In this document: positions 1-46,500 of the stretch, piece after piece
Layout of the letters: each line of letters opens with the position of its first letter
Position numbering within the stretch: the first letter of the stretch is position 1
NCBI RefSeq assembly: GCF_000264315.1
Contig: NZ_AJXU01000042.1
Location: 1-64,000 of the forward strand
Direction: 5' to 3'
Source: Rhodanobacter fulvus Jip2
Lineage (GTDB): Bacteria > Pseudomonadota > Gammaproteobacteria > Xanthomonadales > Rhodanobacteraceae
DNA: 64,000 nucleotides
Notes under the pieces: generated by a model
What the model saw: only the letters and a program-made list of their open reading frames with translations
The model's database searches: none
Told to the model about the DNA's origin: nothing
Program-made: the position numbers and the translations under genes

Positions 1-228
1 GGCGCGGGCGGCGCGGGCACCGGCGGCGCCGGCATGGGCGCAGCCGGTGGTGCCGGCGGAGCCGGCGGCACGTCGTACGCGGATGCCGGCAGCTTCGACA
101 TGTCCAACCAGATGAACGGCACCGCCGTAGGTGCCGCGGGTATCGCGGTGCTCGCCCAGAACAGTGGCGCCGCCGCGCTGGTGCAGCAGAGCGTGAATGT
201 GCAGGCCAACCTCACCGTCGGCCCGTAA
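1..228 (+). CDS. Glycine-rich secreted protein, C-terminal part (substrate-like protein of the Fap-like cassette)
   Basis: The reading frame is already open at the first base, so the start lies upstream of the window. The visible 75 residues begin with Gly/Ala-rich low-complexity sequence (repeated GAGG) and end in a segment containing LAQNSGAAALVQQSVNVQ. The same QNS-x4-[LH][IV]Q[NQ] pattern recurs near the ends of the next two small exported proteins (331-717 and 1421-1951). This suggests one family of surface or fibre subunits handled by the peptidase and barrel encoded downstream. Gly-rich low complexity plus N/Q motifs fits an amyloid-like or fibrous exoprotein, but this is inference; I do not recognise a named family. 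A strong terminator follows immediately. Confidence 0.6.
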   Translation, partial: GAGGAGTGGAGMGAAGGAGGAGGTSYADAGSFDMSNQMNGTAVGAAGIAVLAQNSGAAALVQQSVNVQANLTVGP

Positions 229-237
229 CGGAAAGCC

Positions 238-267
238 CGCCGTGGAGTCTTGCTCCACGGCGTTTTT
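238..267 (+). terminator. Rho-independent terminator
   Basis: A perfect 10-bp stem (238-247 with 253-262) closes a 5-base loop and is followed by five T residues. It lies 9 bases after the stop codon of the Gly-rich gene and separates it from the next gene. Confidence 0.8.
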
Positions 268-330
268 CCAGACTCGTCATGGCGCGGCGCTACGCCGTGC
301 CATGACGCCGAGCATTCACGGAGTGACGCC

Positions 331-717
331 ATGCGAAGCTGCCGATCTTTCCTGTCCACATCCTTGGGATGCCTGCTGGCGTCCTTTGCGATGGCGGGCC
401 TCGCACAACCACCGCCCCCGGCGGCTCCCTCGCCGGTAACTGCCGCTGGAGCCGTGCCGGCCAGCACCGACGGCTTTGGTCCCGGCGTTACCCCTGCCAC
501 CCTGGCCACGATGCGTGGCGGTACCGACGTCGTGGAAAACATGCACCTGCACGGCACCGTGGACAACAACCGCGCCGACCATGTCGTCAGCGGCTACAAC
601 ACGATTTCCGGTGGGGCGTTCACGGGGGCGGCGGGCGTGCCGATGGTGATCCAGAACAGCGGCAACAACGTGCTGATCCAGAACGCCACGATCATCAACG
701 TGCAATTCCAGCCATGA
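331..717 (+). CDS. Small exported protein with double-glycine-like LxxMRGG site and QNS motif
   Basis: 128 residues from the ATG at 331, which is preceded by GGAG and followed by a signal peptide (hydrophobic residues about 7-23, cleavage near GLAQ). An upstream in-frame start at 250 would put the signal sequence internally, so it was not used. A Pro/Ala linker leads to TLATMRGG (residues 57-64), matching the ELxxIxGG consensus of double-glycine leaders cut by C39 peptidases: L at -7, M at -4, GG at -2/-1. Residues 106-120 read VIQNSGNNVLIQNAT, the motif shared with neighbours. The stop overlaps the start of the C39 peptidase gene (ATGA), so the two are translationally coupled. Likely a peptidase substrate; no named family recognised. 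Confidence 0.72.
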   Translation: MRSCRSFLSTSLGCLLASFAMAGLAQPPPPAAPSPVTAAGAVPASTDGFGPGVTPATLATMRGGTDVVENMHLHGTVDNNRADHVVSGYNTISGGAFTGAAGVPMVIQNSGNNVLIQNATIINVQFQP

Positions 718-1406
718 AACATGGCTGCTGGTGCAAGGTGTTGCTGGCGGTGGCGATGCTGCCGCTCGGGTCGGCGTGGGCGGCCACGATGGAGGTGCCC
801 GGCATCCAGGGCAACGGCTATACGTTCCACCTCACCAGTCTCAAGGAAGCGCGTTTCAAGAACACCATCCGCCAGCATTTCGACTTCAGCTGCGGCTCCG
901 CGGCCACCGCCACCTTGCTGACCTACCAATACGGCTATCCAGTGGGCGAGCAATGGGTGTTCGAGCAGATGTACGCCCATGGCGACCGCGCGAAGATCCG
1001 CCGCGAGGGGTTCTCGCTGCTGGACATCAAGCGCTTCCTGCATGCCAACGGTTTCGAGGCCGACGGGTTTCATGTGCCGCTGGACAAGCTGCGCCAATCC
1101 AGCGTGCCGGCTATCGTGCTGTTGAACGAAAAGGGCTACCACCATTTCGTGGTGGTGAAGGGCCTGCGCAACGGTCGCGTGCTGGTGGGCGACCCCGCGC
1201 GCGGCACCCGGGCAATGGCGCGCCGCACGTTCGAGACGGCATGGCAGAGCAAGCTGGTATTCGTCATCCATAACCGCCGCACATTGGCGGTATTCAACAG
1301 CACGGACGATTGGCGCGCCGCGCCGCTGGCCTCGCTGGGCGATGGCATCGACCGGCGCGGGCTGGATCGGATCACCCTGCCCAAACGCGGCCCCAACGAT
1401 CTCTGA
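714..1406 (+). CDS. Periplasmic C39-family cysteine peptidase (FapD-like)
   Basis: 230 residues with an N-terminal signal peptide (residues 1-23, ending GSAWA), so the enzyme acts after Sec export. Unlike bacteriocin C39 peptidases it carries no ABC-transporter domain. The C39 signature is visible: Gln54 (oxyanion) six residues before catalytic Cys60 in FDFSCGSA, then His144 in YHHFVVVKG and Asp160 in VLVGDPARG. Overall spacing fits a complete stand-alone C39 fold. FapD of the Pseudomonas Fap amyloid system is also a C39-like protein. Both flanking small proteins carry LxxMRGG sites that fit C39 specificity, suggesting it trims them in the periplasm. The ATG at 714 overlaps the previous stop. 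Confidence 0.82.
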   Translation: MKHGCWCKVLLAVAMLPLGSAWAATMEVPGIQGNGYTFHLTSLKEARFKNTIRQHFDFSCGSAATATLLTYQYGYPVGEQWVFEQMYAHGDRAKIRREGFSLLDIKRFLHANGFEADGFHVPLDKLRQSSVPAIVLLNEKGYHHFVVVKGLRNGRVLVGDPARGTRAMARRTFETAWQSKLVFVIHNRRTLAVFNSTDDWRAAPLASLGDGIDRRGLDRITLPKRGPNDL

Positions 1407-1420
1407 GCGTGGAACGAACC

Positions 1421-1951
1421 ATGACCAAGCCCCGACATTCGCGACATCTTCGTTCTTGCTCGTTGGGTTTGATCGCGGCGGTCATGGTTGGCGCGGCACC
1501 GCTGGCGACGGCGGCATGCGGGTCGCCCTGCGTGAATGCCTGGTCGCTTCCGGTCGGCAACGTGCAGCTCGATGCCATGCGCGGTGGCTTCGACAGCGGC
1601 AACGGTTTGCTGGCGTCGTTCGGCATCGATCGCGTGGTTTATATCAACGGCAATCTGGCCACGCGCACGAGCGTGTCGATACCCGATATCGGCCACATGT
1701 CGCCTGCGCAGGCGCGGGCGCTGGCCGCGGTCGATGGCGTCCTCACGGTAGTGCAGGGCGGGCAGGGCAACACGGCGGCGCTGGTGCCATCGGGCGCCGC
1801 CACGGCCACCGTGATCCAGAACAGCCTCGACGGCCAGCACATCCAGAACCTCACCACGATCGACGCGTCGGTGGATCATCTGGACCAGTTTCGCAGCGCG
1901 CGCCTGGGCGACACCTTGCAGGGTGCGTTGATTCAGTCGCTGGGGCATTGA
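1421..1951 (+). CDS. Exported protein with LxxMRGG site and QNS motif, second substrate-like protein
   Basis: 176 residues from the ATG at 1421; this start gives a good signal peptide (basic start, hydrophobic residues 14-31, cleavage near ATAA). A double-glycine-like site QLDAMRGG lies at residues 49-56. Residues 131-143 read VIQNSLDGQHIQN, matching the motif of the proteins at 1-228 and 331-717. The middle is rich in G, N and V with no recognised domain. It lies 14 bases after the C39 peptidase and 67 bases before the outer-membrane barrel, so it is probably in the same operon. A secreted or surface structural role is inferred from context only. Confidence 0.72.
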   Translation: MTKPRHSRHLRSCSLGLIAAVMVGAAPLATAACGSPCVNAWSLPVGNVQLDAMRGGFDSGNGLLASFGIDRVVYINGNLATRTSVSIPDIGHMSPAQARALAAVDGVLTVVQGGQGNTAALVPSGAATATVIQNSLDGQHIQNLTTIDASVDHLDQFRSARLGDTLQGALIQSLGH

Positions 1952-2018
1952 GTGGTGATGCAGACAACGCGGTGAGGTGCGGCTTCGCACGCGCTTTTTT
2001 GGCTCACGAGGAAAGGGC

Positions 2019-3356
2019 ATGGCAGGGAAATCGTCGCGAAGCAAATATGCCGCCGGTTGCGCCGGCTTGCTGTGTCTCGGCATGGCGCATGCCCAGCAGC
2101 CGGCGTCCACCGCCGATGGGCTGCCCGCCGCCATCAGGCAGAACGTGATCCAGCAGGGCGAGCGGCTGGATGCGATGCGCAGCCAGCTGGCCGCCCAGAT
2201 GGCGCAGATCGAACAGCTCAAGCGCGCGCTGGCGGCACAGGAGGCGGACTACCGCGCCTTGCGCCACGAGATGGGCATGGACGGCAGCGGCAAGCCGCCG
2301 GGCACGGCGAACACGGTCGCCACATCCGGCGCCGCGACAACGGAAACGGCCGCTGCCGCCGCACCGCAACCGGTGGGCCGCGCACCCGTGCGCGAACCGG
2401 GGCCGCCTGCGGTGGCACCCATCTTCGAGCAGCCCGGCGTGCTCACGCCGCGCGGCAAATTCGTGATCGAGCCGTCGTACCAGTTCGGCTATTCCTCGGC
2501 CGATCGGGTCGACCTGATCGGCTACACCGTGATCCCCGCCGTGCTGATCGGCCTGATCGACGCACGCCAGGTCAGGACCACCACGCAGACCGGCGCGCTG
2601 GCACTGCGCTACGGGCTCACCAACCGGATGGAGCTGGAGCTGCGCGTGCCGTATCTGTACAACCACACCGACACGACCAGCCGCGAGATATTCACCGGCA
2701 GCGCGGAGGATCGCGTGTTCACTTCGAGCGGCCATGGTTTGGGGGATATCGAAGCGACGGCGCGCTACCAGATGAACGACGGCGGCGCCGACAAACCCTA
2801 TTTCGTGGGCTGGCTGCGCTTCAAATCGCGCACCGGCCGCGATCCGTTCGAGGTCACCACCGATTGCGTCAACCGCTGCATCCAGAACGTCACCGGCACC
2901 GGCATGCCGCTGCAACTGCCGACGGGTTCGGGTTTCTATTCATTGCAGCCGGGCGTGACCTGGCTGTATCCGTCCGACCCGGTGGTGTTTTTCGGCAACC
3001 TCAGCTACCTGCACAACTTTGCCCGCCATGGCGTGAGCCGCCGCGTGCTGGGTGGGGACAGGGAGTCGCTGGGCACGATCGAGGTGGGCGACGTGGTGGA
3101 TCTCAGCCTCGGCATGGGCTTTGCGCTCAACGACAAGGCGTCCATCAGCCTGGGCTATGACCAGAGTTTCGTGGGCCTGACCAAACAGAACGGCAAGACG
3201 GTGGCGGGGTCGGCGAAGACGGTGCTGGGCACCTTGCTGGTCGGCGGCTCCTATCGCCTCAGCGACCGGCGCACGCTGAACGTGGCGCTGGGTGTGGGCA
3301 TTACCCGCGACACGCCCGACGCCACCGTGACCGTGCGCCTGCCCACCACGTATTAA
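2019..3356 (+). CDS. Outer-membrane beta-barrel with N-terminal coiled coil (FapF-like / MetA-pathway-type porin)
   Basis: 445 residues. The ATG at 2019 is preceded by GAGGAAAGG and starts a signal peptide (residues 1-25, ending MAHA). Residues about 36-86 are Q/A/L-rich heptads predicted to form a coiled coil, followed by an Ala/Pro-rich linker to about 140. A C-terminal barrel starts at LTPRGKFVIEPSYQFGYS, with alternating amphipathic strands up to an aromatic last residue (Tyr). The order coiled coil, linker, barrel matches FapF, the trimeric amyloid-export porin; the barrel also resembles the Phenol_MetA_deg transporter family. Together with the C39 peptidase this suggests export of the small neighbouring proteins. 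A plain uptake porin is the alternative. Confidence 0.75.
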   Translation: MAGKSSRSKYAAGCAGLLCLGMAHAQQPASTADGLPAAIRQNVIQQGERLDAMRSQLAAQMAQIEQLKRALAAQEADYRALRHEMGMDGSGKPPGTANTVATSGAATTETAAAAAPQPVGRAPVREPGPPAVAPIFEQPGVLTPRGKFVIEPSYQFGYSSADRVDLIGYTVIPAVLIGLIDARQVRTTTQTGALALRYGLTNRMELELRVPYLYNHTDTTSREIFTGSAEDRVFTSSGHGLGDIEATARYQMNDGGADKPYFVGWLRFKSRTGRDPFEVTTDCVNRCIQNVTGTGMPLQLPTGSGFYSLQPGVTWLYPSDPVVFFGNLSYLHNFARHGVSRRVLGGDRESLGTIEVGDVVDLSLGMGFALNDKASISLGYDQSFVGLTKQNGKTVAGSAKTVLGTLLVGGSYRLSDRRTLNVALGVGITRDTPDATVTVRLPTTY

Positions 3357-28407: not shown

Positions 28408-29484
28408 ATGGCGTGGAATGAACCCGGTAAGGGACAACAGGGCGATCCATGGAATCGCAAGCGGCCTTCGGGCGGCGCGCCGAACCTGGACGACCTGCTC
28501 AAGCAGCTGAAGGGCCGTTTCGGCAAGTTCGGCAATGGCGCGGGCGGCATCGTCACCGTCGTGGTGGCCTTGCTGGTGTTGAGCGTGCTGTTCAGCAGCT
28601 ACACCATCGTCGGTGCGCGCGAAGCGGGCGTGGTACTGCGTTTTGGCCAGTATTCGCGCACGTTGCCGCCGGGCTTCCACCTGAAGCTGCCGATACCGTT
28701 AGAGACGATCACCAAGGTCGAAGCCACCCGCATCCGCTCGGTGACCGACAAGGTCGCCATGCTGACCCGCGATGAAAACATCATCACCATCGATTTCACC
28801 GTGCAATACCAGGTGGACGACGCCCGCAAATACCTGTTCTCGCTGAACGACCCCGATGGCACCACGGGCGCGGCGGCGGAGGCGGCGGTGCGCTCGGTGA
28901 TCGGCGGCAGCGACATGGACCAGATCCTGTCCGCGGCCGGCGCCAGCCTGGTCAGCGAGGCGCAGGTGGCGTTGCAGAAAACGCTGGATAGCTACAACTC
29001 GGGCCTGCGCGTCACCGAGGTGAGCTTCCAGAACGTGGCGCCGCCGAACGAGGTGAAGGACGCCTTTGACGACGTCAACAACGCCCGCGAAGACAAGCAG
29101 AGCATCGAGAACGGCGCCCTGGCCTACGCCAGCAAGGTGGTGCCGGTGGCGCGCGGCGACGCGGCGCGCATCGCGGCCGAGGCGGCAGGCTACAAGGCCG
29201 AGCGCATTGCCCGCGCCGAAGGCGACACCGACCGCTTCGACCTGATGCTGAAGCAGTACCAGGCGGCACCGGAGGTCACCCGCAAGCGGCTGTGGCTGGA
29301 AACCATGGAACAGGTGATGGCTGACAACCCCAAGGTGATCGACGGCTCCGACGGCCGCAACATCATCAACCTGCCGGCACACCAGGGCGGCACGGCCACC
29401 TCGGCCAATGCGGATTCATCCAGCGCGAGTGTCGTGGTGCCCGCTGCCAGCAGCAATTCAGCCGACAAGGGAGCACAGCCATGA
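28408..29484 (+). CDS. hflK: FtsH protease modulator HflK
   Basis: 358 residues. One membrane helix (about residues 47-65) follows a Gly/Pro-rich N terminus. The SPFH/band-7 domain begins SYTIVGAREAGVVLRFGQY. The Ala/Ser-rich tail lacks defined structure. With HflC it forms the cage around FtsH on the periplasmic side of the inner membrane. The stop overlaps the hflC start by 4 bases. Confidence 0.95.
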   Translation: MAWNEPGKGQQGDPWNRKRPSGGAPNLDDLLKQLKGRFGKFGNGAGGIVTVVVALLVLSVLFSSYTIVGAREAGVVLRFGQYSRTLPPGFHLKLPIPLETITKVEATRIRSVTDKVAMLTRDENIITIDFTVQYQVDDARKYLFSLNDPDGTTGAAAEAAVRSVIGGSDMDQILSAAGASLVSEAQVALQKTLDSYNSGLRVTEVSFQNVAPPNEVKDAFDDVNNAREDKQSIENGALAYASKVVPVARGDAARIAAEAAGYKAERIARAEGDTDRFDLMLKQYQAAPEVTRKRLWLETMEQVMADNPKVIDGSDGRNIINLPAHQGGTATSANADSSSASVVVPAASSNSADKGAQP

Positions 29485-35522: not shown

Positions 35523-37361
35523 ATGAATCAAGCTTCGCTTTCCGCCCTCATCTGGTCCGTCGCCGACCTGCTGCGCGGTGACTACAAACAATCCGAATAC
35601 GGCCGGGTGATCCTGCCGTTCACCGTGCTGCGACGGCTGGATTGCGTGTTGCAGCCAACCCGGAAAGCGGTGCTGGCCGAGTTCGAGGCCAAGACCAGGG
35701 CCGGCCTCAACCCCGATCCGTTCCTGCTGCGCAAGGCGAAGCAGTCGTTCTACAACACGTCGGCACTCGATCTGCCCACCTTGGTGGGCGATCAGGACCA
35801 CATCCGCCAGAACCTCTACACGTACGTACAGGCGTTCTCGCCCGCGGTACGAGAAATCTTCGAGCGCTTCGATTTCTTCACCCAGGTCGAGCGTTTGGCC
35901 AAGGCCAACCTGCTGTACCTGGTCACCGAGAAATTCGCCAACATCAACCTGCATCCGCACGAAGTCGACAACGCGCAGATGGGCCTGGTGTTCGAGGAGC
36001 TGATCCGCAAGTTCGCGGAAATCTCCAACGAAACCGCCGGCGAGCACTTCACCCCGCGCGAAGTGATCCGGCTGATGGTCAACCTGATCTTCATCGAGGA
36101 CGACGACGTGCTCGAGCCCGGCAATGCCGTGGTGCGCACCATCTACGATCCGACGGCCGGGACGGGCGGCATGCTCTCGGTCGCCGCCGAGCACCTGTTG
36201 CAGCACAATCCGGCGGCCAAACTCGTGCTGTACGGGCAGGAGTTGAACGACGAGTCCTACGCCATCTGCAAGGCCGACATGCTGATCCGCGGCCAGGACG
36301 TGGCCAACATCGTCGCCGGCAACACGCTCAGCGAGGACGGCCACGGCGGCCAGAAGTTCGACTACATGCTGTCCAACCCGCCGTTCGGCGTGGAGTGGAA
36401 GAAGGTCGAGAAAGCCGTGCGCAGGGAGCACGAGGAGAAAGGCTTCGACGGCCGTTTCGGCCCCGGCCTGCCGCGCGTGTCCGACGGTTCCATGCTGTTC
36501 CTGATGCACCTGCTGGCCAAGATGCGGCCGGCCATCGACGGCGGCAGCCGCTTCGGCATCGTCCTCAACGGCTCGCCGCTGTTCACCGGCGGCGCCGGCA
36601 GCGGCGAAAGCGAAATCCGCCGCTACGTGCTGGAGAACGACCTGGTCGAAGCCATCATCGGCCTGCCCACCGACATGTTCTACAACACCGGCATCGCCAC
36701 CTACGTGTGGATCATCTCCAACAAGAAACCCGCCGACCGCAAGGGCTTTGTGCAACTGATCGATGCCGGCAGCTTCTGGCAGAAGATGCGCAAGAGCCTC
36801 GGCAGCAAGCGCAAGGAGATGAGCGACGACCACATCGCCACCATCACCCGATTGTTCGGCGACTTCGCCGAAGCTGAACTGGCCACCGTCTTCGACGCCG
36901 CCGGCAAGGAAACCGGCCGCCAAGTGATCGCCGCCGCCGAATTCGCTCCCGAACCACCCGCCGGTGGCAAGGTGAAGGTCGCGCCGATCGCGCGCATCTT
37001 CAGGAACGAGGACTTCGGCTACACCACGATCACCGTCGAACGCCCGCTGCGCGACGAGGCCGGCAAGGTCGTGCTGGGCCAGAAAGGCAAGCTCAAAGGC
37101 AAGCCGCAGCCGGACAGTTCACTTCGCGACACCGAGAACGTCCCCTTGAACGAGGACATCAAGGCCTACTTCAAGCGCGAGGTGCTGCCGCACGCGCCCG
37201 ACGCATGGATCGACGAAGCGAAGAGCAAGGTCGGCTACGAGATCCCGTTCAACCGCCACTTCTACGTGTTTGAGCCACCGCGGGATTTGCACACCATCGA
37301 CCAAGAACTGAAGGGCGTGTCGGCGCGGATCATGGCGATGCTGGGGGAGTTGGCGGAATGA
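35523..37361 (+). CDS. hsdM: Type I restriction-modification DNA methyltransferase subunit M
   Basis: 612 residues. An N-terminal HsdM helical domain (to about 150) precedes the SAM motif [10 protein letters not shown] (about 208-217) and the catalytic NPPFGVEW (N at about 285), an N6-adenine methylase signature. The C-terminal quarter extends beyond the core, with a Lys/Glu-rich segment. It methylates the recognition site and is needed, with HsdS, for both modification and restriction. hsdS follows after a small nuclease gene; hsdR lies 6 kb away. Confidence 0.93.
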
Positions 37362-37390
37362 GTTTGCCTGCAACGACCAGCACACCCCAC

Positions 37391-37418
37391 CGTCATTCCC
37401 GCGAAGGCGGGAATCCAG
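37391..37418. repeat. dRS3-like palindrome (cgtcattcccgcgaaggcgg type)
   Basis: One copy of an ATTCCCGCGAAGGCGGGAAT palindrome with flanking cgtc/ccag, between hsdM and the GIY-YIG gene. Two more copies lie in the next 430 bases. The core matches the ATTCCC-N8-GGGAAT form known as dRS3 in Neisseria. Confidence 0.8.
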
Positions 37419-37428
37419 TGAGCCAGCC

Positions 37429-37857
37429 ATGACGCGTGAACTCCACCCAGCCGTATACATCATGGCCAGCGCCCGCAACGGCACGCTCTATATCGGCGTC
37501 ACCTCCAACCTGGTGCAGCGCGTCTGGCAGCACCGGGAAGGCGTCGTTGAAGGATTTACCCACCGATACCGGATCAAGACACTCGTCTGGTACGAACAAC
37601 ACGACACCATGGAAAGCGCGATCACCCGCGAGAAAGCCCTGAAAAAGTGGAACCGCGACTGGAAGCTGCGTCTGATCGAGGCGTCCAACCCGGATTGGCG
37701 CGATCTGTGGCCCGAAATCGTCGGTGACGAAGCGCCTCATTCCTCGCAGCCCCCTGCTCGTCATTCCCGCGAAGGCGGGAATCCAGAACGCGACCAACCA
37801 TCAATCCCTCAAGCACTGGATTCCCGCCTTCGCGGGAATGACGGAGAGGCACCATGA
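37429..37857 (+). CDS. GIY-YIG nuclease-superfamily protein with repeat-derived C terminus
   Basis: 142 residues. Residues 8-90 form a compact GIY-YIG domain (AVYIMASARNGTLYIGVTS gives the Y-I and Y-I-G elements; Arg in QRVWQHREG; later Glu in EKALKKWNR). The last 40 residues (RHSREGGNP and LDSRLRGNDG) are translations of two inverted dRS3-like repeats, so the tail is probably not conserved. It overlaps hsdS by 4 bases. Such small GIY-YIG proteins (UPF0213/YhbQ-like) are DNA-associated; a specific role in the RM locus is not established. Confidence 0.82.
   Translation: MTRELHPAVYIMASARNGTLYIGVTSNLVQRVWQHREGVVEGFTHRYRIKTLVWYEQHDTMESAITREKALKKWNRDWKLRLIEASNPDWRDLWPEIVGDEAPHSSQPPARHSREGGNPERDQPSIPQALDSRLRGNDGEAP
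37759..37843. repeat. Inverted pair of dRS3-like palindromes
   Basis: A cgtcattcccgcgaaggcgg-type copy at 37759-37786 and a reverse-complement copy at 37816-37843, separated by 29 bases, all inside the 3' end of the GIY-YIG coding region. Confidence 0.82.
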
Positions 37858-39224
37858 GCCTGCCGCGGTATGCGCAGTACAAGGACAGTGGCGTGGCTTG
37901 GCCGGGCGACGTGCCGGCCCATTGGAGCGTCAGCAAGGTAAAAACGGTCATCAAAGCGATCGATTCCGGCGTAAGCGTCAACGCAGTTGACACACCGGCG
38001 GCTGATGGATCGGCCGGCGTGCTGAAAACCAGCTGCGTGTATGACGGCACGTTTCGTTTCGAAGAGAACAAGGCTGTGCTCGAAGAGGAGCTGAGCCGCG
38101 TTGCATGCGCTGTCGAAAAAGACACTGTCATCGTTAGTCGCATGAACACGCCGGCCTTGGTCGGTGCAGCCGGCTTGGTCAAGGAGAATCGGCCTAATAT
38201 CTATCTTCCCGATCGTCTTTGGCAGATTCATTTTCATAACTGTGTACCCAGTTTCGTGCACTACTGGACGCTGAGCCCGGTCTATCGACATCAAGTGGAG
38301 ATTGCGTGTGCCGGCACCAGCTCAAGCATGCAGAATCTAGGGCAAGATCAGTTCAAGAGTTTTTGGATTCCGCTGCCGACGCTAGATGAGCAATCCGCCA
38401 TCGCCGCCTTCCTCGACCGCGAGACCGGCAAGATCGATGCGCTGATTGCCGAGCAGGAAAAGCTGCTGACGCTGCTGGCCGAAAAGCGCCAGGCCACGAT
38501 TTCTCACGCCGTCACCCGCGGCCTCAACCCCAACGCTCCAATGAAAGACTCCGGCGTGTCGTGGCTGGGCGAAGTGCCGGCGCATTGGCGCGTTACGCGT
38601 CTCAAGTTCGTTGCATCTGTGCAGACTGGGATCGCGAAAGGCAAGGACAATCAAGGGAAGGAGACCATCACGGTTCCTTATCTGCGTGTCGCCAATGTTC
38701 AGGACGGTCATCTCGCATTGGAGCAGGTCACGACGATCGATATCGAACCAGAGCAGCTCGACAGATATCGCCTTCAGGTTGGCGACGTGCTAATGAACGA
38801 AGGTGGGGACTTTGACAAGCTTGGGCGTGGTGCCATCTGGGGTGGTGAAATCGAAGACTGCATTCATCAAAACCACGTCTTTGCCGTGCGACCGCATGCA
38901 GTCAGTCCGCAGTGGCTCAATCAGATCACCAGTTCGCAGTACGCCCAGTTCCACTTCATGGGGAGATCCAAGCAGAGCACCAATCTTGCCTCGATCTCGT
39001 CCACGAACGTCATGGAGCTTCCCATCCTGTTTCCGCCACACGAAGAGCAAGCGGCGGTTCTCGCTTTCGTTGAATGTGAGAATGCGAGACTCGATGCGCT
39101 TCATGATGCTTCCACTCGGGCCATTTCGCTTCTCAAGGAACGCCGCAGCGCTCTGATCGCTGCTGCCGTCACCGGCAAGATCGACGTGCGAGGGGCGATG
39201 GAGGCGCAGGATGATCCGCATTGA
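37854..39224 (+). CDS. hsdS: Type I restriction-modification specificity subunit S
   Basis: 456 residues with two target-recognition domains (about 1-185 and 225-400). Each starts with the similar phrase YKDSGVAWPGDVPAHW / MKDSGVSWLGEVPAHW and is followed by a coiled spacer, ALIAEQEKLLTLLAEKRQA and ALHDASTRAISLLKERRSA. It determines the bipartite DNA site. The recognition-domain DNA is slightly less GC-rich than neighbouring genes, common for frequently exchanged hsdS. The end overlaps the next gene by 14 bases. Confidence 0.92.
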   Translation: MSLPRYAQYKDSGVAWPGDVPAHWSVSKVKTVIKAIDSGVSVNAVDTPAADGSAGVLKTSCVYDGTFRFEENKAVLEEELSRVACAVEKDTVIVSRMNTPALVGAAGLVKENRPNIYLPDRLWQIHFHNCVPSFVHYWTLSPVYRHQVEIACAGTSSSMQNLGQDQFKSFWIPLPTLDEQSAIAAFLDRETGKIDALIAEQEKLLTLLAEKRQATISHAVTRGLNPNAPMKDSGVSWLGEVPAHWRVTRLKFVASVQTGIAKGKDNQGKETITVPYLRVANVQDGHLALEQVTTIDIEPEQLDRYRLQVGDVLMNEGGDFDKLGRGAIWGGEIEDCIHQNHVFAVRPHAVSPQWLNQITSSQYAQFHFMGRSKQSTNLASISSTNVMELPILFPPHEEQAAVLAFVECENARLDALHDASTRAISLLKERRSALIAAAVTGKIDVRGAMEAQDDPH

Positions 39225-40635
39225 AGATTTCGTGGCCGACGGAGTAATACCGGACATCGCCTATCGCACGGCAGAGTCGCCCGAGGAGGTGATTCATCCT
39301 CGTGTGGATGTCCGCGATGGGATGCTCACTTTCTATTCGCATAAAGAACGTCATGAGTCCCATCGCGGCTATGTGCTCGTTTCGGATTTTCTTGAACGCT
39401 TAGCCCAAGGAGAGGTAGGGCTTGCCATTACTGGAAATCGGCCAAGCAACGGCTTGCGCACCACGATCACATTCGACAGAGTTGATCGCATCACTATTTC
39501 GCCTCGTCTGGAGCAATTCCTTGCCGAGTTGCGTGCAACGGGGCGTGTTGCGGATACCGATGTGACCAATGCTCGTCAAGCAGTGTTTGATGTCGAAGCG
39601 CGACGCTTCCTCGACGGGTTTATGGCGTCCGACAACCCTCAATTCGTCTACTGGTTGCCGCGTTATACGCAAACCTTGGCGCGAGTGCGTGAGGCTTTGT
39701 CCCGGAAAGCACCCGAGGATCTGTTCGATCTCATCTGGAAATCCCGCGACAATGCGGTGAGCAATGCCGGGCAGGGTGTCATGGGTTTTGCGGTCGCCGA
39801 CCGGCTGCGTGGAAGGTTGATTGAAGTGATCGGAAACATCGCTGCCGATGGCAGTCCTGCCACTTTCGGCGCGATCATTGACCGATTCGAGCAGTGGCGC
39901 GTGCAGGGTGAACTGGCCAGTGTGCCAAGGTTGCTGGTGGCGCGTGCATTCGCTGCGGTTCATCCAGAGCGATACCACACGACAGTAGATGCATCCAAAC
40001 AGGAACGCATTGTTCCGTGGTTTGCTGAACACACGGGGTTTGTCGCACCGGAAGGCGGCTGGGCTGCGAAGGCGGCCGCGTTGTCAAACCATCTCGCACG
40101 GTGTGGTGTCTTTGGCGGCGATCTCGAACGGCAGAACATGTTTCCGTGGTTCGTGTTCGAGCAGTTGAGGGGGGCAAACGGAAAGGTTCCTTTCCGGCCC
40201 GGACATACGTCAAAGCTAGCAACGGGCGATGCGCGTGGTTCTCCGGAAGGCCGGGAAATCGACTACCGTCACAATGTCATCCAGGATTGCTTGTTCGAAC
40301 TTCTGTGTGCCCGCCATGGCGAGGACGCTGTGGGCACCGAGCGTCCGACTGGGACCGGTGGCCGTGCGGACGCTTTGGTGTGTCTACCCGATGGCCGTTT
40401 CGAGTTATACGAGATCAAGCCGGCTCCGACCGCAGCCGATGCGGTACGTCAAGCCATGGGGCAACTGTTGGAATACGCCTACCGTCGTGGCGGATTGCAA
40501 CCCGTGTCCATGCATGTCGTATCTGATGCCCCACTCGATGAAATCACTAGCGAGTTTCTGTCGCACCTGAGATCCGAGTTCGCGTTACCAATCGAATACC
40601 TGCAGATCGCCTGTGAAAATGGAGATGAGCGATGA
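39211..40635 (+). CDS. Unrecognised RM-embedded protein with C-terminal PD-(D/E)XK nuclease domain
   Basis: 474 residues, translated from an ATG overlapping hsdS. I recognise no full-length family. The C-terminal 100 residues show a PD-(D/E)XK core: Asp387 in GGRADALV, Glu401-x-Lys403 in ELYEIKPA, then Gln418 in AMGQLLEYAY, the Q..QL.EYA helix typical of Mrr-like and related nucleases. The middle (about 225-300) contains VARAFAAVHPERYHTTVD, resembling DNA-recognition modules of McrB-type proteins. Base composition is lower in GC than the housekeeping genes, suggesting acquisition. Probably a defence nuclease or RM accessory factor. Confidence 0.72.
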   Translation: MIRIEDFVADGVIPDIAYRTAESPEEVIHPRVDVRDGMLTFYSHKERHESHRGYVLVSDFLERLAQGEVGLAITGNRPSNGLRTTITFDRVDRITISPRLEQFLAELRATGRVADTDVTNARQAVFDVEARRFLDGFMASDNPQFVYWLPRYTQTLARVREALSRKAPEDLFDLIWKSRDNAVSNAGQGVMGFAVADRLRGRLIEVIGNIAADGSPATFGAIIDRFEQWRVQGELASVPRLLVARAFAAVHPERYHTTVDASKQERIVPWFAEHTGFVAPEGGWAAKAAALSNHLARCGVFGGDLERQNMFPWFVFEQLRGANGKVPFRPGHTSKLATGDARGSPEGREIDYRHNVIQDCLFELLCARHGEDAVGTERPTGTGGRADALVCLPDGRFELYEIKPAPTAADAVRQAMGQLLEYAYRRGGLQPVSMHVVSDAPLDEITSEFLSHLRSEFALPIEYLQIACENGDER

Positions 40636-40645
40636 GAGAAAATTC

Positions 40646-41575
40646 ATGAGCGATATCCAGTTGTTCCGCCTGACCGGCAGCGATGCGGTGGAACTGTCCG
40701 GCCGCGCCGCATCAGTCGAAAAGCAGTTGCAGTCCCTGATCGAAGCGCAGATGCCGACTTTCCTCGGCGTGCGTTTCCTCGCCAGCGAATACGCCACCGG
40801 CAAGACGCATCGCGGCCGCATCGACTCGCTGGGCCTGGACGAGAACGGTTGCCCGGTGATCATCGAGTACAAACGTCACAGCAACGAGAACGTGATGAGC
40901 CAGGGCCTGTTCTACCTGGACTGGTTGCTCGATCACCGCGCCGAATTCCAGTGGTTGGTAATGGAGAAGCTGGGCAAGGACGTGGCCAACGAGATCGACT
41001 GGACTGGCACCCGGCTGCTGTGCATCGCGGCCGACTTTACCCGCTACGACCAGCACGCCGTGCAGCAGATTCCACGCAATATTGAACTGATCCGCTACAA
41101 GCTGTTCGGCGATGATTTGCTGCTGCTCGATCTGGTCAATGCGGTGACGGTGGACGACGCCACCACGGTGAAAGAGAAGCACGTGGACGGAACCACGGCC
41201 ATCAAGACAAAGCCCGTCGGCAAGGACAAGACCGCCGAGGAGCAGTTGGAACAGGCGCATCCGGAAATCCGTGCACTGTATGAAGCCGTCTCCAGCCAGT
41301 TGCTCGCGCTCGGCGACGACGTGCAGGAAAAGCACCTGAAACTGTATGTCGCCTTCCGCCGCCTGAAGAACTTCGCCTGCGTGATTCCATACAAGGACAA
41401 GCTGCTGGTCATGCTCAAGCTGGACCCTGACACGGTTGCGCTGGAAGCGGGCTTCAGCCGCGACGTGCGCAACATCGGCACCTGGGGCACGGGCGATCTC
41501 GAACTGTGCCTGCGAACCATGGCTGATTTTGAACGGGCAAAGCCACTGATTGAACGCAGCTACGGCGAGAGCTGA
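40646..41575 (+). CDS. DUF5655-type protein with PD-(D/E)XK-like nuclease domain
   Basis: 309 residues from MSDIQLFRLTGSD. The N-terminal domain has the nuclease pattern Asp60 (RGRIDSLGLD) and Glu74-x-Lys76 (PVIIEYKR), then a hydrophobic helix GLFYLDWLLDH. The C-terminal domain (about 205-309) is the DUF5655 form (LYVAFRRLKNFACVIPYKDKLLVMLKL). This family often lies next to type I RM genes. Start chosen over the upstream ATGs because it aligns with the family start. Confidence 0.8.
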   Translation: MSDIQLFRLTGSDAVELSGRAASVEKQLQSLIEAQMPTFLGVRFLASEYATGKTHRGRIDSLGLDENGCPVIIEYKRHSNENVMSQGLFYLDWLLDHRAEFQWLVMEKLGKDVANEIDWTGTRLLCIAADFTRYDQHAVQQIPRNIELIRYKLFGDDLLLLDLVNAVTVDDATTVKEKHVDGTTAIKTKPVGKDKTAEEQLEQAHPEIRALYEAVSSQLLALGDDVQEKHLKLYVAFRRLKNFACVIPYKDKLLVMLKLDPDTVALEAGFSRDVRNIGTWGTGDLELCLRTMADFERAKPLIERSYGES

Positions 41576-41611
41576 GGGCCTGGATGAACTTGAGCGGACG
41601 CACTGCCTGAC

Positions 41612-41696
41612 GTAGGTTGGGGTGAGCGCAGCGATGCCCAACATGGTTTGCGGCACGGCGAAAATGTTGGGGTTCGCAAGCTCACCCCAACCTACC
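41612..41696. repeat. gtaggttggggtgagc-type palindromic repeat, copy 1
   Basis: The left arm gtaggttggggtgagc is matched by gctcaccccaacctac at the right end; the middle holds a second pair around cccaacat / atgttggg. A nearly identical copy in the same orientation starts at 42366. This type of repeat is widespread in proteobacterial genomes. Confidence 0.85.
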
Positions 41697-41699
41697 CAG

Positions 41700-41771
41700 C
41701 CGCGCCTGCGCAACCGGGCCGGCCTGCAACGTGCGTTGCCGTTGCTGGAACGCAGTTACGGCGAGGGCTGA
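41700..41771 (+). pseudogene. Remnant of a second DUF5655 C terminus
   Basis: Frame 41700-41771 encodes LRNRAGLQRALPLLERSYGE-then-stop, aligning over 21 residues (about 13 identical) with the end of the intact upstream protein (LRTMADFERAKPLIERSYGE). It is separated from that gene by the palindromic repeat at 41612. It looks like a diverged tail left by recombination between related genes or by an insertion event. Confidence 0.65.
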
Positions 41772-41805
41772 GCATGACGTTTTGGAATAGTCCGGAGGGG
41801 GCAAG

Positions 41806-42237
41806 ATGACCGTCGAACGTCAGTTGATACGCGATCTGGCGGCGACTTTGCGCGCCCAGGTCGCCGGGTTGGTGGTGAAGGATCTCGAAGAGATGCTGGA
41901 GGGCCTCAGCGACGACTCCGGCCTGGCGAACGTGTGGGAGGAGTTTTGCGTCCAGGTTCAGGGCGAGCACTCTTTCTTCTGGGAAACGTATCTGGAGATT
42001 GTCGAAGACTTCGTCGTCGGCCATATCGATGAACTTCCATTGGCCATGCAACGGGTGCTGTCGATGGGCACTGACGTTGGAGATGGATGGCTGGATGATC
42101 CGGAGGAGGGCGGCGTCGTACCGATCTTCGCCGACGATGTGGCGGTGATGTTGTCGAGTGACGTGCTTGCGTTGGCGGCCGACTTTGAGAGCCCATCCAT
42201 TGAGCGCTACAAGGCGCGTGGGTACGAAGGGGATTGA
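41806..42237 (+). CDS. Strongly acidic hypothetical protein in the RM locus
   Basis: 143 residues, good RBS (GGAGGGGG). No family recognised. Asp and Glu outnumber Lys and Arg about three to one, with acidic clusters such as GWLDDPEEGG. It is flanked by two direct copies of the gtaggttgggg repeat, suggesting a separately acquired cargo gene. Acidic small proteins next to RM systems can be DNA mimics or immunity factors, but nothing in the sequence proves this. Confidence 0.55.
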   Translation: MTVERQLIRDLAATLRAQVAGLVVKDLEEMLEGLSDDSGLANVWEEFCVQVQGEHSFFWETYLEIVEDFVVGHIDELPLAMQRVLSMGTDVGDGWLDDPEEGGVVPIFADDVAVMLSSDVLALAADFESPSIERYKARGYEGD

Positions 42238-42328
42238 GTCGGGAGCGGAACCCAATTCAGTGATTGCCGGTACTGATTTGCAGGCGGTCGACATTCGCCT
42301 CACGGCTTGCTTACTAGCCCGGCTATTG

Positions 42329-42360
42329 CGATATCCGCAATTCGCGAATTGCGAATATCG
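42329..42360. promoter_or_regulatory. 32-bp near-perfect palindrome upstream of the MNT-HEPN pair
   Basis: Centred on ATTCGCGAAT; 15 of 16 base pairs match (mismatch 42335/42354). It lies about 150 bases before the nucleotidyltransferase gene, with a repeat in between. Candidate operator for an autoregulated toxin-antitoxin pair or an element end; no protein partner is identified. Confidence 0.5.
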
Positions 42361-42365
42361 AGCCC

Positions 42366-42450
42366 GTAGGTTGGGGTGAGCGAAGCGATGCCCAACATGA
42401 CTTGCGGCGCGGCAAAAATGTTGGGGTTCGCAAGCTCACCCCTACCTACC
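42366..42450. repeat. gtaggttggggtgagc-type palindromic repeat, copy 2
   Basis: Same orientation and nearly the same sequence as the copy at 41612; the right arm has one change (cccctacc for ccccaacc). Together they form direct repeats about 754 bp apart around the acidic protein gene. Confidence 0.85.
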
Positions 42451-42508
42451 CGGCTGCAGTTCGCTCGATATTGCAGAGTGTTGCCGATTTGGCTACATTC
42501 GTCGCCTA

Positions 42509-43138
42509 ATGAGCAACACAACGGCACTGATGGATCTGCTCTTCCCCGCCACCCGGCAACGGGTGCTGGCGCAGTTGCTGCTGAATCCGGATGAGAGTTT
42601 CCATTTGCGCGAGCTCGCCCGACTGACCGGCAGTCACGCGGGCACCGTAGGGCGTGAACTGGAAAAACTGGTGAGCGTTGGCTTGCTGCTGCGTACCGAG
42701 CAAGGCAATCAGGTGCGCTACCAGGCCGATGCACAGTGTCCATTGTTTGCTGAACTCACGGCCATGTTCCGCAAGACCCTTGGCATGGTGCCGGTGCTGC
42801 GTGAGGCATTGCTGCCGCTGGTGGGTAATATCAACGTGGCTCTGGTGTTCGGCTCGATGGCACGCGGCACGCAGTCGGCCGGTAGCGACATCGACCTGCT
42901 GGTGATTGGCGAGGTGCGGTTTGCCGAGCTGGCGCAGGCCTTGTATCCGGCGCAACAGGCGTTGCAGCGAGAGATCAATCCGGTGCTGTATGCACCGACT
43001 GAGTTTCGGCGACGGGCAGGCGAGGGTGATGCTTTCATCCGCCAGTTTCTGGACAAGCCCAATGTGTTCCTGAGGGGGGGTAAGGATGACCTTGCAAAAC
43101 TTGCTGGCGATCAAACGCCTGCTGGCGCACGCGCCTGA
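42509..43138 (+). CDS. HTH-MNT nucleotidyltransferase (antitoxin of a MNT-HEPN pair)
   Basis: 209 residues. An N-terminal winged helix-turn-helix (about 15-75, FHLRELARLTGSHAGTVGREL) precedes a minimal nucleotidyltransferase domain with G115-S116-x10-D127-x-D129 (GSMARGTQSAGSDIDLLV). MNT proteins can AMPylate and silence a HEPN RNase partner; the HTH suggests self-regulation. The following HEPN gene overlaps it by 53 bases, the classic two-gene arrangement. Confidence 0.82.
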   Translation: MSNTTALMDLLFPATRQRVLAQLLLNPDESFHLRELARLTGSHAGTVGRELEKLVSVGLLLRTEQGNQVRYQADAQCPLFAELTAMFRKTLGMVPVLREALLPLVGNINVALVFGSMARGTQSAGSDIDLLVIGEVRFAELAQALYPAQQALQREINPVLYAPTEFRRRAGEGDAFIRQFLDKPNVFLRGGKDDLAKLAGDQTPAGARA

Positions 43139-43535
43139 CGGCGCGGCGGTGCGCAAGCTGCTGGCGGCGGCGCAACGCAATCTGACGGATGCACGTGTGG
43201 CGGCCATCAGCACCGACAACCGCTTCGACGCGGCCTACAAGTGCGTGATGCAATGCGCGATGCTGGGTCTGTGGGCCAGCGGCTATCGCACCGCGACCAG
43301 CCAGCCGGGCCATCACCAGACCGCGATCCAGTGCCTGACCCTGACCATGGGCGTGCCGACGCCTACCGTGATTGTGTTGGATGCGTTGCGCAAACAACGC
43401 AATCTCAGTGACTACGAAGGCGATCCGATTTCCGAGGCGACACTGGCGTCGTGTCTGGACGAGGGCAGCAAGTTGCTGGCGCATACCGAGCAATGGCTGC
43501 ACGACAACCATGCCGATTTGCTGGGTGAGGCATGA
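43086..43535 (+). CDS. HEPN-domain protein (probable toxin partner)
   Basis: 149 residues, mostly helical. HEPN features: DNRFDAAYKCVMQCAMLGLW in the central helices and the late RKQRNLSDYEGD, corresponding to the R-x4-6-H active-site region of HEPN RNases, with Tyr where many families have His (as in the SAV_6107-like group). It overlaps the upstream MNT gene and abuts hsdR by 4 bases. Likely the effector half of a toxin-antitoxin module; RNase activity is unproven. Confidence 0.72.
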   Translation: MTLQNLLAIKRLLAHAPDGAAVRKLLAAAQRNLTDARVAAISTDNRFDAAYKCVMQCAMLGLWASGYRTATSQPGHHQTAIQCLTLTMGVPTPTVIVLDALRKQRNLSDYEGDPISEATLASCLDEGSKLLAHTEQWLHDNHADLLGEA

Positions 43536-46500
43536 ACCTGCACAAGGAAGTCCATTTCGAGCAGGCCATCGTCGAGCATCTGGCCGCCAACGGCTGGCTC
43601 TACGCCGAAGGTGACGCTGAGCATTACGACCACACGCATGGCCTGTATCTGCCCGACCTGCAGGCCTGGATCGAGGCGACCCAGCCGGACAGCTGGCAGC
43701 GCCTGAGCAAGACCCACGGCCCGGCCGCCGCCGAACGCATTGCCGAGCGCGTACGCAAGAACCTCAACGAGCGCGGCACGCTGGAGGTGTTGCGCCGGGG
43801 CGTGGAGATGCTGGGGTTGAAGCAGCCGTTGTCGCTGGTGCAGTTCAAGCCGGCGCTGGCGATCAATCCGCTGATCCTTCAGCACTACGCGGCGAACCGG
43901 TTGCGCGTGGTGCGGCAGGTGCGGCATTCGCCGAACAACACCAAGGATGCGCTGGACCTGGTGCTGTTCGTCAACGGCATCGCGGTGGCCACGGCCGAGC
44001 TGAAATCCGATTTCACCCAGAGCGTGGGCGATGCGGTGGACCAGTACCGCTTCGACCGTCACCCGCAGCCCAGGGGCGGACAATTGGAACCGCTACTGGG
44101 GTTTCCCGGTGGCGCGCTGGTGCATTTCGCGGTGAGCCAGGCCGAGGTGATGATGACCACGCGGTTGGCCGGACCAGCGACGCGCTTTCTGCCGTTCAAC
44201 CGCGGCGATCACGGCGCGGCCGGCAATGCGCCGAACCCGGACGGATTTGCCACGGCGTATCTGTGGCAAGAGGTGTGGGCGCGCGACAGCTGGCTGGAAA
44301 TTCTCGGCCGCTACCTGATCGGCAAGCGCGACGACAAGAAGCAGCTCACCAGTGTGATCTTTCCGCGCTACCACCAGCTCGACGCCACGCGGAAGCTGGT
44401 GGCCGACGTGCTGGCCGAGGGCGCGGGGCAGCGCTACCTGATCCAGCATTCGGCCGGTTCGGGCAAGACCAATTCGATCGCCTGGAGCGCGCACTTCCTG
44501 GCCGACCTGCACGATGCGCAGCACAAGAAAATGTTCGACAGCGTGCTGGTGGTATCCGACCGCAACGTGCTGGATGCGCAATTGCAGGAAGCCATCTTCG
44601 ACTTCGAGCGCACCACCGGCGTGGTGGAAACCATCACCAGCGAGCACGGCAGCAAGAGTGCGCAACTCGGCCAGGCGCTGAAGGATGGCAAGAAGATCAT
44701 CGTCTGCACCATCCAGACCTTTCCGTTCGCGCTGCAGGCGGTGCAGGAGCTGGCCGCCACCGAGGGCAAGCGCTTCGCGGTGATCGCCGACGAGGCACAC
44801 AGCTCGCAGACCGGCGAGGCGGCGGCCAAGCTCAAGCAGCTGCTGAGTGCCGAGGAATGGGCGGAGCTGCAGGACGGCGGCGAGATTGATACCGAAGCCA
44901 TGCTGGCTGCCGGCATGGCGGCGCGTGCGGGTGGCAACAGGGGCCTGACCTACGTGGCGTTCACCGCCACGCCCAAGCAGAAGACGCTGGAGCTGTTCGG
45001 CCGCCCCGGTGCGGATGGCCTGCCGCAGCCGTTTCACGTGTATTCGATGCGCCAGGCGATCGAGGAAGGTTTCATCCTCGACGTGCTGAAGAACTACACG
45101 CCGTACAAGCTCGCCTTCAGACTGGCCCACGATGGCAAGGAGTACGACGAGGCGCAGGTGGAACGCAGCGCGGCGATGAAGGGGATCATGCAGTGGGTGC
45201 GCCTGCATCCCTACAACATCGCCTCCAAGGTGCAGATCGTGGTGGAGCACTACCGCGAGAACGTGCAGCCGCTGCTGGATGGCAAGGCCAAGGCGATGGT
45301 GGTGGTCGGCAGCCGCAAGGAGGCGGTGCGCTGGCAGAAGGCGATCCGCGCCTACATCGCCCGGCAAAACTATCCGCTGGGCGTGCTGGTGGCGTTCTCC
45401 GGCGAAGTGAATGACCCGGACAGCTATCCGCAGGCGGTCACCGAGACCAGCGCCGACCTCAACCCCGGCCTCAAGGGTCGCGACATCCGCGAAGCATTTG
45501 CACGGCCCGACTACCACCTGTTGCTGGTGGCCAACAAGTTCCAGACCGGCTTCGACCAGCCGTTGCTGTGCGGCATGTACGTGGACAAGATGCTGGGCGG
45601 CATCCAGGCGGTGCAGACGCTGTCGCGTTTGAACCGGGCGCACCCGGGCAAGGACACCACGTACATTCTCGACTTCGTCAATGACGCCGGCGAGATCCTC
45701 AAGGCGTTCAAGACCTATTACGACACCGTCGCGCTGGAAGCGAACACCGATCCGCACCTGGTCTACGACCTGCGCCAGAAGCTGGATGCCAGCGGTCATT
45801 ACGACGATTTCGAAGTGGAACGCGTGGCCAAGGTGGAAACCGACCCGCGCGGAACCCAGGCCCAGTTGAGCGCCGCGATCGCGCCGGTGGCCAATCGTCT
45901 GCTCCAGCGCTACAAGGCGGCGCAACAGGCGCAGGCCACCGCGCTGGTCGCCGGCGACGACAAGGCGGCCGAGTCGAACAAGGACGCGCTCGATGCGCTG
46001 GCATTGTTCAAGAGCGACATGGGGAGCTACGTGCGCCTCTATGCGTTTCTTTCGCAGGTGTTCGATTACGGCAACACCGACATCGAGAAGCGCTTCGTGT
46101 TCTACAAGCGCCTGAGTCCGCTGCTTGAATTTGGCCGTGAACGCGACACCGTGGATTTGTCCAAGGTGGTGCTGACCCATCACACGCTGCGCAGCGCCGG
46201 GCGCCAGCCACTCGGCCTGAACGGTGACGGCAGCTACAAGCTGCCGCCGATGGATGCGGTCGGCAGTGGCTCGGTGCAGGAAAAGCAGCAGGCCTATCTG
46301 GCCGAGATCATCCAGAAGGTCAACGGGCTGTTCGAGGGACAGCTGACTGACGACGACCAGCTGGTCTACGTCAACGGCGTGCTCAAGGGCAAGCTGCTGG
46401 AGAACGAGACCCTGGTGCAGCAGGCCGGCAACAACAGCAAGGAGCAGTTCGCCAACTCGCCCGATCTGAAGAACGCGCTGATGAACGCGATCATGGATGC

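Follow-up and report, generated by a model that had tools for sequence, protein, structure and literature searches.

The first 3,356 bases of contig NZ_AJXU01000042.1 of Rhodanobacter fulvus Jip2 hold a cassette of five genes that probably represents a lineage sister to the Fap system for the export of functional amyloid. The window, i.e. the whole stretch of DNA that was analysed, comprises positions 1 to 64,000 of the forward strand, and its left edge is base 1 of the contig. Five plus-strand frames follow each other: gene 1 (1-228), gene 2 (331-717), D (714-1406), gene 4 (1421-1951), and F (2019-3356). The frame of gene 1 is open at the left and, judged from the frame and from relatives, encodes the last 75 residues of a large Gly/Ala-rich exported protein that is cut by the contig end. 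Gene 2 (128 residues) shows a Sec-type N-terminus, an LATMRGG leader motif, and a putative C-terminal Fap-like repeat; D is a FapD-like C39 peptidase of 230 residues; gene 4 (176 residues) again starts with a Sec-type N-terminus; and F is a FapF-type outer-membrane barrel of 445 residues. The stop codon of gene 2 and the start codon of D overlap as ATGA (714-717), the sole start/stop overlap of the cassette, which bears out the same-direction layout described in an earlier, sequence-only reading of this DNA. That reading had also counted three small exported proteins; these are indeed co-conserved and predicted to be exported, but gene 1 is not small, being the end of a protein of about 300 residues.

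The peptidase D matches Pfam Peptidase_C39 (E 8.1e-21), and in NCBIfam it is matched by FapD (1.2e-39; 135.9 bits, cut-off 330) and FilB (1.6e-33), neither of which reaches its curated cut-off. The D protein of a canonical-type operon (locus L058) likewise stays under the FapD cut-off with 260.9 bits. NCBIfam names FapA, FapB, FapC, FapD, FapE, and FapF in this operon, all six under their curated cut-offs, and these thresholds therefore do not separate the canonical from the window type. Compared with FapD of canonical operons in the same families, D yields a profile E value of 6.9e-42. The residues Q54, C60, H144, and D160 are invariant in all 24 diverse D proteins compared, and the Gln (Q54) is presumably one of the C39 catalytic residues. 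For Cys, His, and Asp, this role is stated in the passage of the literature dealing with CvaB (PMC10233263). A second D was not found in the genome.

The barrel F matches the solved FapF structure by sequence (5o67, 1.1e-28), and its comparison with FapF of canonical operons in the same families gives a profile E value of 2.4e-39. An AlphaFold2 model (mean predicted local distance difference test score, pLDDT, 80.6) consists of a coiled-coil helix, predicted at 2127-2270 (plus strand; model residues 22-69), and a barrel. When this model was used for a fold search, the top 18 among the 50 matches listed were all FapF chains (E from 2.3e-20, target template-modelling score 0.75-0.83). The NCBIfam FapF model scores 149.9 bits, below its cut-off of 700; sequence and fold together identify F as a FapF-type barrel with a coiled coil. 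The layout noted in the sequence-only reading is supported: the barrel is of the FapF type and the peptidase is FapD-like. An uptake channel of the COG4313 or FadL type was considered and dismissed, since 4rl8 and FadL rank under all 18 FapF chains. A cysteine pair (DCxxRC) in a barrel loop of F (residues 268 and 272 of the stretch 2064-3353) is shared by each of the 19 aligned close relatives, among which the window is counted.

A barrel search in 80 genomes, the own one included, gave matches in 27. The window type occurs in 20 of these (G030 with a remnant), ten carry barrels of 25-29% identity, and four harbor both systems; the match in G065 is a fragment (8e-5). The ten distant barrels are located in canonical fap-like operons, in which own patterns recovered FapA in eight, FapB in eight, FapC, FapD, and FapF in all ten, and FapE in nine. 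The window contains all five cassette genes together, and so do 17 of 19 other loci; the two that do not are a contig edge (L050) and a remnant (L049, G030:C1:1694390-1694863) that retains the final 158 residues of the barrel between prpC and TerC. A class-wide search of 369 genomes, the own one among them, gave a barrel match in 41, of which 17 lie at 5.4e-80 or better and the next at 5.7e-49. A further set comprises the best 80 of at least 585 relatives found in named genomes with D alone; it covers Rhodanobacter, Dyella, Luteibacter, Lysobacter, Pseudoxanthomonas, Luteimonas, and many Burkholderiales. All five genes are present in 62 of these 80 loci, with gene 2 and gene 4 in 79 each, F in 75, and gene 1 in 66; F lies on the other strand in 27 of 75, and some loci are cut by contig ends. 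These gene counts are profile matches on all frames, as the gene finder shortens signal peptides and under-calls loci of low guanine-plus-cytosine content. The 17 of 19 and 62 of 80 complete loci rule out chance clustering, and the linkage of the five genes is far beyond chance. The separation of barrel and peptidase from the small proteins, named in the sequence-only reading as fatal to its proposal, is therefore not seen, whereas the restriction to Lysobacterales has to be given up, as the cassette is common in Burkholderiales too. In four loci (L116, L118, L119, and L123), a window-type F of 350-362 residues lies on the strand opposite to D and gene 4, directly preceded by a regulator which by reading has a Fis-type C-terminal helix-turn-helix; the F N-terminus of L118 and L116 is too short for a coiled coil.

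A tree was built from 73 D proteins (51 of the window type, a subset of those fetched, 14 canonical, and eight other FapD-like). In it, the window-type branch is split from canonical FapD with a support of 100/100 and in all 200 bootstrap trees. Because of this single branch, the cassette is regarded as a sister system and not as Fap itself.

On profile evidence, gene 4 is a divergent FapE. A profile-profile comparison with FapE gave a probability of 92.4, an E value of 5.2e-7, and a score of 51.5, which none of 240 column shuffles reached (best 21.0; reversed profile 13.5). With close relatives only, hhalign returned E 0.0023; the clear result came with broader alignments. Nine gene 2 proteins that were also matched by the gene 4 profile were excluded from the gene 4 set. 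Gene 4 is located between D and F, which is the FapE position, and the FapE of L265, from another class of the same phylum, matches the gene 4 hidden Markov model (HMM) at 9e-4.

Double-glycine leaders of bacteriocins carry hydrophobic residues at about positions -12, -7, and -4 and GG at -2/-1. By their sequences, gene 4 and gene 2 both show this leader geometry behind a Sec-type N-terminus. In gene 4, the motif LDAMRGG spans 1568-1588, with a predicted cut after base 1588 leaving a mature part of 120 residues; in gene 2, TLATMRGG spans 499-522 and the predicted cut after base 522 would leave 64 residues (both plus strand). In the 80-locus set, LxxxRGG behind the Sec signal is found in 79 of 79 gene 4 proteins (77 on aligned columns; two unaligned rows read LDDMRGGF), and 77 of 79 gene 2 proteins have GG at the leader position. 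Among 24 gene 4 proteins, ranging down to 18% identity to that of the window, the only invariant positions are the R, the two G, and one Asn. Position -7 is occupied by Leu or Met in every aligned gene 4 row (109) and by Leu in every gene 2 row (111); both counts pool the deeper and the 80-locus sets, which have the window and some genomes in common. The 13 deeper gene 4 proteins show L/V/M at -12, E at -8 in nine, L/M at -7, and L/I/M at -4 in 12, followed by RGG. When the leaders of nine deeper gene 4 proteins and of the window gene 4 were scanned alone against two whole libraries, six weak matches were obtained and none for the window protein: TIGR04149, NF046113, PF16934, and PF04604 at E 0.02-0.06, and FapE twice (0.028 and 0.24). 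The four former are double-glycine peptide families with such leaders.

The pattern [LM]..[LMIVATQSE][RK]G[GRK][YF], written after the families had been seen, gave 31 matches in 198,041 residues of called genes from 49 loci, all in gene 4 or FapE; among the 56 called genes of the window it hit gene 4 and one unrelated protein (28408-29484). In canonical FapE, the site reads RGR in nine of nine local proteins (taken by the pattern), LRGR in the tenth (L054), and RGK in L128; the FapE proteins of L259-L261, presumed to be from Pseudomonas, read LRGRY. In the local FapE proteins, this leader-like site lies at about residue 44-55, just behind the signal peptide.

The remaining exported proteins carry no family name. 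In the closest relative (L032, barrel 96% identical), full-length gene 1 is an exported protein of 301 residues made up largely of Gly/Ala repeats, with a conserved tail; the missing front of the window copy was not found elsewhere in the same assembly. A Pfam scan of 16 gene 1 proteins gave no match, and an NCBIfam scan of L032 gene 1, window gene 2, and two gene 4 proteins named nothing. FapA found no match among genes 1, 2, and 4, nor did the NCBIfam models of FapB and FapC match L032 gene 1 or window gene 2. Own exported proteins beside a FapD/FapF-type pair, as the sequence-only reading had it, are thus supported in that no Pfam or NCBIfam model names them, and no match to an unrelated known family exceeded chance level. 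Among themselves, these proteins are alike: genes 1 and 2 share a repeat (profile E 2.2e-8), the profiles of genes 2 and 4 match at 1.4e-9 (1.1e-6 for the portion behind GG only), and hhalign with close relatives only aligns gene 1 stretch 101-130 with FapE 132-161 (E 4.7e-5). Gene 1 is a candidate for the bulk subunit. Two gene 1-like frames per locus occur in L116 (4233-5163 and 7654-8644) and L120 (3898-4648 and 4996-5623), and in L116 a -24/-12 site lies shortly upstream of each.

With reasonable rather than high confidence, the cassette is read as a sister lineage of Fap export in which D trims the products of genes 2 and 4 after GG, F exports them, and gene 1 provides the bulk of a fibre or matrix. 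The Sec system would carry the products of gene 1, gene 2, gene 4, D, and F into the periplasm, and D, owing to its own Sec-type N-terminus, should act there. It would recognise genes 2 and 4 by their LxxxRGG leaders and cleave behind GG, removing the N-terminal propeptide before export. The trimmed proteins, together with gene 1, might then pass unfolded through F, conceivably a trimer, whose periplasmic coiled coil would receive them, and assemble into a fibre or matrix at the surface. Genes 2 and 4 may serve as nucleator and export starter, in analogy to FapB and FapE. The machine parts are familiar and the substrates unusual; the cassette is a variant of the Fap kind that most likely works like Fap. 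Since the tests for FapA and FapB/C came out negative, it should not be called Fap.

Several results weigh against this reading. None of 24 gene 4 proteins is matched by the NCBIfam FapE model at E<=1, for which reason the link to FapE rests on profiles, gene order, and motif; scanned at full length against NCBIfam, gene 4 meets seven scattered weak families, with FapE absent among them. The predicted structure of gene 4 is poor (pLDDT 64), and this low-confidence model places a short helix (21-27) so that it ends just ahead of GG. Gene 2 is without GG in 12 of 13 deeper loci, and the canonical FapE site reads RGR or RGK, so GG is not needed everywhere. The repeats are likewise uncertain. After removal of one gene 4 protein (L120, one of 31 rows) from the broad gene 2 set, the end of gene 2 matches the FapB/C repeat at E 1.8e-5 (probability 78), with one of 240 shuffles equally good; with that row included, the values are 3.6e-5 and 0 of 240. 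An HMM of the FapB/C repeat found nothing under E 0.4 in 4,882 frames of the cassette loci, although many of the best-ranked entries were gene 2 proteins. FapC usually has three Fap repeats; in gene 2, a single Fap-like one at the end is probable, while the likeness of the gene 1 end to the Fap repeat is equivocal (E 0.004, one of 240 shuffles equally good). In the closest relative L032, moreover, a -24/-12 promoter site is missing at its usual place before gene 1. The statement of the sequence-only reading that FapA, FapB, FapC, and FapE are all lacking accordingly survives for the FapA and FapB/FapC models, with the reservation of the gene 2 repeat, and fails for FapE.

An unlikely alternative to trimming is that RGG serves as a docking or folding motif, either for D in the role of a chaperone or for F, and that the real substrate of D is another protein, e.g. 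F itself. It would accommodate the RGR/RGK of canonical FapE and the LxxMRGRY motif in the N-terminal part of the FapF homologue of L265; according to the respective passages, chaperone activity is the sole function of some C39 domains (PMC6173800), and cutting of FapF has been proposed (PMC5557850). Against it stand the catalytic residues, invariant in all 24 D proteins, and the motif of the deeper gene 4 proteins, which follows the leader layout over positions -12 to -1; the periplasmic part of the window F contains no GG and one GA only, and the active-site Cys of FapD is reported to be required (PMC5557850, passage on FapD). The cassette might also be a divergent canonical Fap that lost fapA and changed its subunits, which is considered quite improbable. 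The order substrate-substrate-D-E-F is kept, gene 4 is FapE-like, and loss of fapA is described as common in the relevant part of a 2013 survey (PMC3792158); set against this are the fully supported D branch (100/100, all 200 bootstrap trees), the gap in barrel scores from 5e-80 to 6e-49, the four genomes with both systems, a gene 1 unlike FapC, and the FapA search of genes 1, 2, and 4 without a match. Export of bacteriocin-like or signalling peptides, in which genes 2 and 4 would encode the active products in the way proposed for nap, is very improbable: GG leaders are present, and in the nap island GG peptides are described next to a C39 peptidase and a homologue of FapF (PMC11798529), but gene 4 is FapE-like, gene 2 probably bears a Fap-like repeat, and a large repetitive gene 1 accompanies them in 66 of 80 loci.

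Compared with Fap (fapABCDEF, Pseudomonas and others), the sister system proposed here shares the C39 peptidase, a FapE-like protein, the FapF-type coiled-coil barrel, the gene order, an RpoN-type promoter, and an [LM]xx[ML]RG leader-like motif in the E protein. It differs in its separate D branch, a glycine-rich gene 1 in place of FapC, a one-repeat gene 2, RGG in gene 4 instead of the RGR/RGK of FapE, and a FapA search that gave no match. Fil, a putative pilus of Acinetobacter (FilA-FilD) that also occurs in L262-L264, resembles the cassette in that a C39 peptidase adjoins a FapF-type barrel and a small exported protein of its loci has an L..[VI]TGQ motif; unlike there, window D and F are nearer to FapD/FapF than to FilB/FilC and no FilD adjoins F. 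Membership in Fil was rejected, as genes 1, 2, and 4 match neither FilA nor DUF6160 and the 3' neighbor of F is TerC-like. The locus L262:6292-10269 and those of L263 and L264, all from Pseudomonas-like genomes, are Fil-type, with NCBIfam FilA, FilB, FilC, and FilD all under their cut-offs in L262. The DUF6160 protein of L262-L264 starts with an LDD..L..[VI]TGQ stretch, whose spacing is that of the RGG leader and which therefore hints at a cut site with Gln.

The nap island of Neisseria gonorrhoeae is similar by description only: its account reports the C39 peptidase NapP, the FapF homologue NapF, and peptides with GG motifs, which are characterized as cationic, microcin-like, and tied to autolysis, and its passages on the island mention no FapE-like or glycine-rich protein (PMC11798529). 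Double-glycine peptides exported by C39-ABC transporters (class II microcins, bacteriocins) have the leader positions, GG, and the C39 Cys/His/Asp in common with the cassette, and differ in that the C39 domain is described as part of the inner-membrane ABC transporter (PMC10233263, PMC5557850, in the sections concerned). Fap, Fil, nap, and the window system may, at rather less than even chances, form one outer-membrane export superfamily in which a Sec-exported C39 peptidase reads a double-glycine-type leader in the periplasm, the residue before the cut being G here, R/K in FapE, and Q in FilA. As part of the same tentative proposal, the substrate of FapD would be FapE, cut at [LM]xx[ML]RG[RK] behind the signal peptide.

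This bears on an older question. The passages on FapD in the 2017 FapF paper state that its active-site Cys is required for FapC secretion, that its target ‘remains unclear’, that Fap proteins are without canonical C39 sequences, and that no peptides were seen for the first ~70 residues of FapE (PMC5557850). A 2018 review agrees on FapD in its corresponding part and mentions five more phyla in which homologues of fapD and fapF are co-located (PMC6173800), and the 2013 survey treats FapD and FapF as parts of larger families in the section at hand (PMC3792158). The sister counterpart of FapE keeps a strict RGG leader and therefore allows an exact prediction of the peptidase target site for both systems; in FapE, it may lie at about residue 44-55, behind the signal peptide. 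Among the titles and abstract openings listed from open-licence PubMed Central, none names this FapE site (FapD with double-glycine; FapD/FapE cleavage, 2018 on), and none deals with the cassette. With this system, Xanthomonadales and Burkholderiales would gain a common cassette for the export of surface proteins, including a glycine-rich protein to which Pfam and NCBIfam gave no name here, and amyloid export would be tied to bacteriocin-type leader processing. The FapF homologue of another class in L265 (9042-10500) bears LAPDDLVTMRGRY in its N-terminal part, an LxxMRGRY leader-like motif as in FapE; FapD could therefore act on FapF there too.

Two terminator-like hairpins with T runs are located on the plus strand of the cassette: one of 11 pairs directly 3' of gene 1 (238-267), a possible attenuator, and a weaker one between gene 4 and F (1977-2000). 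The region holds five terminator-like sites, compared with a mean of 2.2 (standard deviation 1.7) in shuffles, and a comparable stable hairpin 3' of gene 1 is found in nine of 18 loci. The hairpin at 238-267 could raise gene 1 output over that of the remaining genes. The promoter of the window's own gene 1 lies off the contig. In 14 of 15 relatives, an RpoN-type -24/-12 site with 7-10 of 10 positions precedes gene 1 by 76-103 bases, and for ten of the 15 such a site is rare in shuffles (<=6/200). Within the 80-locus set, the gene 1 start is usable in 56 loci; 23 of these have a strict site, in 22 cases between -60 and -103. RpoN dependence is also described for the fap operon of P. fluorescens PF07 (PMC9207406). 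Sigma-70 promoters were not found in the window. The gene 3' of F is TerC-like and on the opposite strand; in the fetched stretches of full-cassette relatives, prpC (methylcitrate synthase) is present in 15 of 17 and an opposite-strand TerC gene in 14 of 17, a neighborhood that is given no functional weight. Farther downstream, the translations of the window stretch 35523-46639 suggest a type I restriction-modification locus, whose M and S genes enclose a short GIY-YIG-like frame (37429-37857).

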